64,000 nucleotides of DNA, taken from Sphingomonadales bacterium (GTDB lineage Bacteria > Pseudomonadota > Alphaproteobacteria > Sphingomonadales > Sphingomonadaceae). The stretch spans positions 62,001 to 126,000 of the forward strand of contig JANYGX010000020.1 of the NCBI GenBank assembly GCA_025362295.1. Reading direction: 5' to 3'. The stretch's first letter is position 1, and each line of letters begins with the position of its first letter. The notes below the pieces were generated by a model. That model saw nothing but the letters and a program-made list of their open reading frames with translations, was not told the DNA's origin and made no database searches. A program made the position numbers and the translations under genes. Shown here in pieces: positions 10,150 to 12,778 of this stretch.

Positions 10150-12012
10150 TCAGGTTGTTAGTGCCGCCATATCCGCCGCCAGACTTTCGCAATCGGGGTC
10201 AAGCGCCAGAGCCTTTGCGAATGCCGCTTTGGCTTCGGCTATCTTGCCACTCACCCTGTGCAGAAATATCGCCCAATCGTGCCACAGGGCATGATCAGAT
10301 GGTTGCTGCTCCAGCGCGGCTACATACAGGGCTTCGGCTTCTGGCACGCGGTTCTGGCCAGCCAGCAAATGACAGAGTTCACCCAGAACCCACCTGTAAT
10401 CCGGCTGCAAAACCAGTGCAGCGCGGTAAGCCACCTCGGCATCAACGGGCCGGCTCATGCAATTGGCATACAAGCTGCCGATTTGGGCGCGCACCCAGGG
10501 GTCGTCTGCATCATACTTGACAGCGTTCAGATAGGCCGTTTCTGCGGCCTCATAATGTTTCAGCCCCTCGTGGCACACGTGGCCCATGCCGCTCCATGCC
10601 CAGGCATAATCTGGCTCGAATTCCAGCGCCTTGGTGTAGGCTGCCAAAGCCTCCTCCAGCCGACCGCCTTGATGAAACAGCACCTGGCCCAATTGTGCCC
10701 ACGGCCATGCATAGGCATCGTCCTGCTCGATTAGGATGCGATAGTGCTTTTCGGCCTCACTTGGCTGACCCATTTCATGATGCAGCAGCTGGGCAAACTG
10801 CGCCCGCGCCCAGCCGTAATCGGGTTGCAGAGCAAGCGCTTTGTTATAATGCTCAACAGCTATGTCGTACCGACCAGCGGCATCGGCATAAAAATACGCC
10901 AGATGTGCTTCAGCCCAGGCATAGTTTGCATTCAGCTGAAGGGCATGATGAAAGGACGCCTCGGCCTCAGTTGCCCGATTTGGTAGGTGAGAGAGCGTTT
11001 CCGCAAGCTGTGCCCAGTCCCAGGCGTCGTTGGGATCAAGGTCCAGACTCTTTCGCAAAATTGTCTCGGCTTCCGGCCAGCGACCCAGATCCTGCCCGAC
11101 CAGCATACCCAGCTGACCCCACGCCCAGACATAACCGGGATTATGCTGCACAGCGCTGCGATAGGCGTATTCCGCCTCTAACGGCCTGTCCAGAGCTTCC
11201 TGCAACAACAAACCGAGATGCGCCCAGGCCCAGGCATAGCTCGGGCTGATCTCTACAGATTGCCGCAAACAACGCTCCGCCTCCTCCAGATCGATGTCGT
11301 AATCGTGCAGCAGCCGGCCTTTCCAGGCCCACGCCGCTGCTGATTCTGGTTCGAGGTCAAGAGCGCGGTCGAAAGCCAGCATCGCAGTATTCATGTCACC
11401 GCCGCTATCGGCTGTCACACGACCAAGATATGCCCAGGCCATGCCATCATCATCTTCCAGGGTAACAAGGTGCCGGAACAGCGGCGCCGCGCGGGCAGGA
11501 TCGTCCATACGGTCTGCCAGCAGCTCAGCCAAATGGCGCAGTGCATCCGTATCATCGGGGTGCATGGACAGTATTGATTGCCATTTGTTGACTGCGTCCT
11601 CCAGTCGTTCCGACTGTTCCAACCGCAGCGCCTCGGTACGTTCATAGGCAAGCTGCAAGGCCGTGGCTTCTGGCGGTAGCGGCGTTGCGCCTTCTGAAGA
11701 CCAGTCCGTATCCATATCCGAATCAAGGATATACCCTCCCGGCGCGTCACTCGATCTTGAATTGCCATGATTGAGAAAATCGGCCTGGCTGCGAATCCGC
11801 CGATCCGCAACAAGAACCGCTTCAGATTGCTCGTTTTGGCCAAGATGGCTTCGAATTTCAGAGAGTTGCGCCCAGGCCTCGGCGTGGCTTTCCTGCAAGG
11901 CAACAACAACTCTCAGCGCAATTTCAGCCTCATCGTAACGCCCGGCTTTGGAAAAACTCGCAGCGCGGCCCATATAATCTGTAATCGCAGCTTCGGTGGT
12001 TTGGGCGCTCAT
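10150..12012 (-). CDS. large tryptophan-rich TPR-repeat protein
   Basis: A 620-residue protein without signal peptide or membrane segment, so probably cytoplasmic. An N-terminal TPR pair (about 10-75) is separated by an acidic linker (about 80-120) from about 12 consecutive repeats of near 35 residues (about 190-615). Units start with AWAWAxLGxLL and end with AxxLxPxY. The double Trp, at positions two and four of the unit, is unusual, since canonical TPRs keep only one aromatic there. Such superhelices bind peptides or proteins. No enzymatic domain is attached. A 25-codon ORF and a hairpin terminator lie just upstream; the gene has only a weak Shine-Dalgarno of its own. Function unknown. Confidence 0.8.
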   Translation of the reverse strand: MSAQTTEAAITDYMGRAASFSKAGRYDEAEIALRVVVALQESHAEAWAQLSEIRSHLGQNEQSEAVLVADRRIRSQADFLNHGNSRSSDAPGGYILDSDMDTDWSSEGATPLPPEATALQLAYERTEALRLEQSERLEDAVNKWQSILSMHPDDTDALRHLAELLADRMDDPARAAPLFRHLVTLEDDDGMAWAYLGRVTADSGGDMNTAMLAFDRALDLEPESAAAWAWKGRLLHDYDIDLEEAERCLRQSVEISPSYAWAWAHLGLLLQEALDRPLEAEYAYRSAVQHNPGYVWAWGQLGMLVGQDLGRWPEAETILRKSLDLDPNDAWDWAQLAETLSHLPNRATEAEASFHHALQLNANYAWAEAHLAYFYADAAGRYDIAVEHYNKALALQPDYGWARAQFAQLLHHEMGQPSEAEKHYRILIEQDDAYAWPWAQLGQVLFHQGGRLEEALAAYTKALEFEPDYAWAWSGMGHVCHEGLKHYEAAETAYLNAVKYDADDPWVRAQIGSLYANCMSRPVDAEVAYRAALVLQPDYRWVLGELCHLLAGQNRVPEAEALYVAALEQQPSDHALWHDWAIFLHRVSGKIAEAKAAFAKALALDPDCESLAADMAALTT

Positions 12013-12065: not shown

Positions 12066-12093
12066 AAGGGCCGCCCTTTTATAGGCGACCCTT
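12066..12093 (-). terminator. hairpin between the 25-codon ORF and the TPR gene
   Basis: AAGGGCCGCC (12066-12075) pairs with GGCGACCCTT (12084-12093) over 10 positions with one G-U, around an eight-base loop, followed on the minus strand by a short T-containing tract. It lies 36 bases after the small ORF stop and 53 bases before the TPR start codon. It is either the terminator of the small gene or an attenuator for the TPR gene. Confidence 0.6.
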
Positions 12094-12128
12094 CCATTGT
12101 CTTGCTCTGATATGGCAGAGAAAGTAGC

Positions 12129-12206
12129 CTATGCCTTGCAAGCACCAGAGAGTGTATTTGATCCGGTATCAAGCTTTTGTATCAGAGTGTTGTGACAATG
12201 AGACAT
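12129..12206 (-). CDS. 25-residue peptide ORF with perfect Shine-Dalgarno
   Basis: ATG at 12206 opens MSHCHNTLIQK, LDTGSNTLSGACKA, then TAG at 12129-12131. The sequence AAAGGAGGTGATCC (12221 to 12208) is complementary to the full 3' end of 16S rRNA, with AGGAGG exactly seven bases from the ATG, the strongest ribosome-binding site I see in the window. The peptide has two Cys and two His and a Gly/Ser/Thr-rich second half. It could be a leader peptide controlling the TPR gene, a RiPP-like precursor or a small metal-binding protein. I recognise no family. The reading frame is certain; expression is inferred. Confidence 0.5.
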   Translation of the reverse strand: MSHCHNTLIQKLDTGSNTLSGACKA

Positions 12207-12207
12207 T

Positions 12208-12221
12208 GGATCACCTCCTTT
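12208..12221 (-). promoter_or_regulatory. ribosome-binding site fully complementary to 16S rRNA 3' end
   Basis: On the minus strand AAAGGAGGTGATCC. On the plus strand the same bases read as the 3' end of 16S rRNA (GGATCACCTCCTTT). The spacing to the ATG and the absence of any other rRNA sequence nearby favour a Shine-Dalgarno over an rRNA fragment. A further inverted repeat AATACA..TGTATT lies upstream (about 12241-12260). Confidence 0.6.
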
Positions 12222-12343
12222 CAAATGTTGATGGTAAGATACAAATACATTTATTGTATTGAAAAGCAAATAAATGGGCCCTTAAAAATATTGCCTTATT
12301 TATAGCCATGTGTATAAAAATTAGGCAGTTAAGGTTCACCTGA

Positions 12344-12778
<435 letters not shown>

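Follow-up and report, generated by a model that had tools for sequence, protein, structure and literature searches.

The minus strand of the window (the whole stretch of 64,000 nucleotides analyzed here) carries, as judged by sequence comparison, a new sub-threshold homologue of CC2171 (Rfam RF01867), a named but functionally uncharacterized RNA family, and comparison with its relatives provides evidence that translation, but not the peptide, is conserved. We estimate a probability of roughly one-half that it represents a stand-alone structured RNA of the CC2171 kind, selected to recruit ribosomes and to be translated by them, with the peptide itself being incidental. The parts of the RNA and its two neighboring genes are as follows.

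12067..12230, minus strand: complete RNA, a homologue of CC2171 (Rfam RF01867) aligned to model positions 1-159
12208..12222, minus strand: GAAAGGAGGTGATCC, 15-nt perfect complement of the 16S rRNA 3′ tail GGATCACCTCCTTTC
12129..12206, minus strand: 25-codon open reading frame (ORF) MSHCHNTLIQKLDTGSNTLSGACKA, ATG to TAG, start and stop kept in homologues
12194..12200, minus strand: 5′ arm of helix P1, CAUUGUC (codons 3 to 5), from fold and covariation over 95 distinct sequences
12095..12101, minus strand: 3′ arm of helix P1, GACAAUG, beside the terminator, from fold and covariation
12066..12093, minus strand: intrinsic terminator hairpin AAGGGUCGCC..GGGCGGCCCUU and then a U-rich tail, from sequence and fold
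10150..12012, minus strand: TPR-repeat protein gene (Pfam), a neighbor outside the system
12440..12778, plus strand: PII protein gene of the glnB type (Pfam P-II, E = 1.5e-33), a divergent neighbor outside the system

Read along the minus strand, GAAAGGAGGTGATCC is followed by a single A, the ATG (12206-12204), the 25 codons, and the TAG (12131-12129). The original prediction had described a Shine-Dalgarno (SD) sequence complementary to the whole 16S rRNA tail, and this complementarity is real (12222-12208), with the tail being read from the 16S 3′ ends of relatives (GGCTGGATCACCTCCTTTCT) as the assembly itself is without a 16S 3′ end. The predicted hairpin behind the ORF is also present, yet it has 12 bp in the computed fold rather than 10, is GC-rich, and, with its U-rich tail, constitutes an intrinsic terminator and not a bare hairpin. 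The fold of the window RNA was better than those of dinucleotide shuffles (z = −3.4). Pfam confirmed the downstream gene, located about 55 nt away on the same strand, as the predicted TPR gene; the start of the PII gene was set at the ATG at 12440.

In a permissive cmscan, positions 12230-12067 aligned with the complete RF01867 model (1-159 of 159) at 67.9 bits (E = 2.9e-14). The curated gathering score is 75 bits, and the window copy was missed by the default Rfam scan; since it falls below the cut-off, we refer to it as a homologue and not as a curated member. Our own covariance models R1 and R2, both trained with the window sequence included, scored it at 90.6 and 91.6 bits, respectively. 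Ten of 18 class-wide loci scanned scored above the RF01867 cut-off, which was exceeded by relatives in Methylobacterium, Bosea, Brevundimonas, Belnapia, and others. Thus, the arrangement that had been taken as undescribed matches a known Caulobacter sRNA over its full length, in sequence as well as in structure. The difference is that Rfam files CC2171 as a non-coding sRNA, whereas a start, a frame, and a stop are conserved here, and this comparative evidence suggests that a named RNA may have been misfiled as simply non-coding. A relative in Mesorhizobium huakuii, MH_s33, which is annotated as RF01867, belongs to a set in which RNA-seq products were obtained for 34 of 35 members (PMC5596092).

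Homologous loci fell into three sets: G-type (most of Sphingomonadaceae), C-type (the kind found in the window), and K (pattern matches across the class). The complete 2.59-Mb assembly contains the 14-mer AAAGGAGGTGATCC a single time, at this locus, and lacks its reversed control. Across 60 genomes of the family, there is mostly one copy per genome, usually at this RNA; the extra copies inspected lie at 16S 3′ ends (GGCTGGATCACCTCCTTTCT) in five genomes, and the one in genome G012 is not 16S. The 16S complement hardly varies over 134 distinct loci, and 30 of the 38 variants of the 14-nt core keep the pairing with 16S as G-U, with 8 breaking it. Complementarity to 16S ends at the base preceding the core, which is mostly C. 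These data bear out the earlier suggestion of selection: so extreme an SD is real and under strong selection, and the reading frame behind it is conserved as well. Extended-SD mRNAs of Staphylococcus aureus, in the available part of their description (PMC13009471), resemble this RNA in their reliance on extended anti-SD pairing; here, in contrast, the complement of the whole 14-15 nt tail is held class-wide by a single small RNA gene that is usually present once per genome.

An origin as an antisense remnant of the 16S gene was set aside, as the match spans only 15-16 nt. The predicted unpaired probability of the SD was 0.36-0.45, close to that of shuffled controls, and the SD is therefore not clearly open in the folds, a point against the favored reading. 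Masking of the SD by the ORF segment GGAUCcUCGCCUC was discarded, since the SD remained at least as paired when the downstream sequence was shuffled. At many G-type loci (L048, L050, and L052 among them), the 70-80 nt ahead of the SD contain a GC-rich, palindromic-looking stretch, e.g., CAGCGG...CTTGGCCCCCGGTGAAACGG, which perhaps belongs to a longer structured leader.

Because the pattern used for the K set fixes the start codon, start conservation was assessed on loci found by the models: 133 of 134 distinct loci carry ATG (98), GTG (33), or TTG (2). The ORF has 18 codons in 53 of the 62 distinct G-type loci and 19-20 in the rest, 19-25 codons in the C set, and mostly 20-26 in the K set, with TAA, TGA, and TAG all occurring in both G and C. 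An ORF of 17-26 codons was present in frame 0 at 62/62 (G), 18/18 (C), and 69/74 (K) loci, versus 15, 1, and 8 loci in frame +1 and 21, 2, and 12 loci in frame +2. Lengths in these control frames scatter widely, and frame 0 never closes before codon 14. Twenty distant loci, recovered by covariance model and not by pattern, all possess the SD, a start, and an ORF of 18-36 codons that ends before the terminator. These results make it very likely, on comparative grounds, that the RNA is translated in most lineages. A possible counterargument comes from a ribosome profiling study in Caulobacter, whose available passages describe the majority of ncRNA regions as untranslated, with translation of just two of the earlier ncRNAs (PMC4117421).

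The conserved signals also bear on the possibility that this is an ordinary trans-acting sRNA pairing with mRNAs, in which the SD-like segment would be a seed or a CCUCC-loop sRNA sponge and the ORF incidental. Its filing as an sRNA by Rfam, its strong fold, and its terminator all agree with such a role; a seed, however, needs no start codon, open frame, or stop, all of which are kept, and the complementarity covers the entire 16S tail, the changes in it preserving wobble pairing. We consider this explanation unlikely.

Two groups of loci depart from the common ORF length. At those of Xanthobacteraceae/Afipia/Rhodopseudomonas (L160, L181, and L191), the ORF is shorter, with 14-17 codons (VSHSKRCHLAG...). 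In Azospirillum (L174, L187, L196, L232, and L233), the extended SD and ATG-TCT-CAT precede an ORF of 57-59 codons with a signal-peptide-like N terminus (MSHGASPVV...), where the initiation region has perhaps been reused by another gene.

The peptide shows a different picture. After codon 5, pN/pS was 0.86-0.96 when C and K were taken together, against 1.2-1.5 for the G set, giving no indication of purifying selection on amino acids in any of the three sets; since these pairwise values are uncorrected for phylogeny and RNA structure, they leave room for weak peptide selection. Differences in the C/K set are about equal across codon positions. Most Sphingomonadaceae peptides read MSHGSA.RSV... 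and have no conserved Cys, while those elsewhere start with SNEI, SHEF, or SSEM, and no conservation of Cys or His was detected in the homologues. The two Cys and two His emphasized at first are thus not a property of the family. We conclude that the sequence of the peptide is probably unimportant. With the start and stop signals kept and the peptide not, the RNA has probably been selected for being read by ribosomes.

Dual-function sRNAs such as SgrS/SgrT, Spot 42/SpfP, and rnTrpL/peTrpL carry a conserved, functional peptide. They share with the present RNA a short ORF within a small structured RNA that has its own terminator, and they differ in that the amino acids here are not conserved; no conserved functional peptide was found in the homologues. 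A weaker form of the idea holds that the RNA is a dual-function RNA or small mRNA whose product is the short peptide, only its N terminus (MSH...) and size being of importance. Conservation of start, stop, and frame would be expected of it, as would the almost invariant first codons of the main types, RTG-TCT-CAT, and the TWI(V/L)AS-like stretch that recurs in some lineages of the class. Codons 3-5, however, change together with their P1 partner, so that codon 4 encodes Cys, Gly, Arg, or Glu, i.e., they follow RNA pairing; moreover, pN/pS beyond codon 5 is around 1 or higher, and the off-frames of the C/K set give similar ratios. On balance, a peptide product appears improbable.

The proposal of a RiPP precursor whose partner is the TPR protein met the same difficulty: a short Cys/His-containing peptide does adjoin a TPR protein in the window, but neither a conserved Cys in most family members, nor a conserved core peptide, nor a conserved neighbor or modification partner was found among the homologues. 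These observations contradict the proposal, and we regard it as hardly credible.

In P1, 96.9% of cells are paired and 4 of the 7 pairs show two-sided changes (95 distinct sequences), while all 10 modeled pairs of the terminator show two-sided changes in homologues. The whole structure lies far above slid controls; the alignment had been fitted to the structure, which favors this covariation result. By eye, the 5′ arms of P1 vary by lineage (CAUUGUC, CAUGGUUCAGC, AAUGAGAUU, and CAUGAAU) with matching partners, and both arms apparently swap together, as in AAUGAGAUU/AAUCUCAU at L152 and CAUGAAU/AUUCAUG at L154. At the 130 loci with a locatable 3′ arm of P1, at least 15 nt separate the stop codon from this arm, which is about the reach of a terminating ribosome. 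A rule placing the stop codon of G-type loci in a hairpin loop was abandoned, since it holds in just 36 of 62 loci.

An initiating ribosome and P1 should be unable to share the same nucleotides, from which we infer that the RNA has two states. In the ribosome-loaded state, P1 would be open and its 3′ arm single-stranded, presumably because the position of the stop codon holds terminating ribosomes off the arm. In the unloaded state, P1 would be closed and stacked on the terminator with the start region masked, and the SD would still be able to hold a 30S subunit. Such an RNA would most likely serve as a sensor of, or a decoy for, free 30S subunits, and its open state might expose the 3′ arm of P1 or set the stability of the RNA. 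That its actual function is a ribosome-load switch or decoy is a tentative suggestion. We advance with greater reserve the complete model, in which a class-wide ribosome-loading RNA, translated into an irrelevant peptide, might report on or hold back free 30S subunits through a contest between the SD and P1. If right, it would give genetically simple access to the way alphaproteobacteria sense or manage their ribosome supply, and it would be one more reason for scanning Rfam sRNA families for conserved frames.

Leader ORFs and attenuators of the trpL type have a short translated ORF in competition with RNA helices close to a terminator, and the putatively translated ORF described here would resemble them in this. 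The difference is that there is no evident target of regulation in cis, as the RNA stands alone in varied contexts. Flanking proteins of 162 loci fell into 204 clusters (with crude ORF calling), and the downstream gene is nearly as often opposed as co-directional (68 versus 84 of 152 cases), i.e., no conserved co-directional downstream gene was found in these cases. As the neighboring genes are not conserved, we consider the RNA a stand-alone gene and leave the TPR gene out of the general explanation. A translational attenuator or leader of the TPR gene, as first envisaged, accords with the window, where the RNA lies on the same strand just upstream with its terminator between, but the downstream gene varies by locus, which contradicts this as the general function and renders it very improbable. 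Of the conservation beside TPR homologues that the original prediction called for, the RNA itself proved to be conserved and the link to TPR genes did not.

CC2171 relatives were identified in 137 of 150 Sphingomonadaceae genomes, only 3 of them above the Rfam cut-off. A search of sister families within Sphingomonadales yielded no convincing relative, and the RNA is present in many other alphaproteobacterial families: in a class-wide draw of 385 genomes, the R1/R2 models detected it in 84. Every strong match in a phylum-wide draw was inside Alphaproteobacteria, with weak, unconvincing matches outside the class in three genomes (best E = 3e-5). The exact pattern gave at least 120 matches, and among the 80 matches listed, the records are Alphaproteobacteria or unclassified Proteobacteria MAGs.

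Several named RNAs were considered as possible counterparts. The loci of Afipia/Rhodopseudomonas had no Rfam match, known Bradyrhizobium sRNA families included. For BjrC174 of Bradyrhizobium and for Zms4/Zms6 of Zymomonas, the published excerpts available carry no sequence for comparison. RcsR1, considered as a lead, was dropped because the available part of a review assigns both it and rnTrpL, the trp attenuator RNA, to one position. A term-based search of two motif papers (PMC6429828 and PMC11109978) turned up no mention of the RNA described here. Two copies per genome occur in G010, G011, G100, G107, G126, G143, and G160, some of which combine one C-type with one G-type copy. Motif matches in plasmid records are only alphaproteobacterial, and the exact motif also occurs on two IMG/VR viral contigs (L310 and L311) among 2.9 million.
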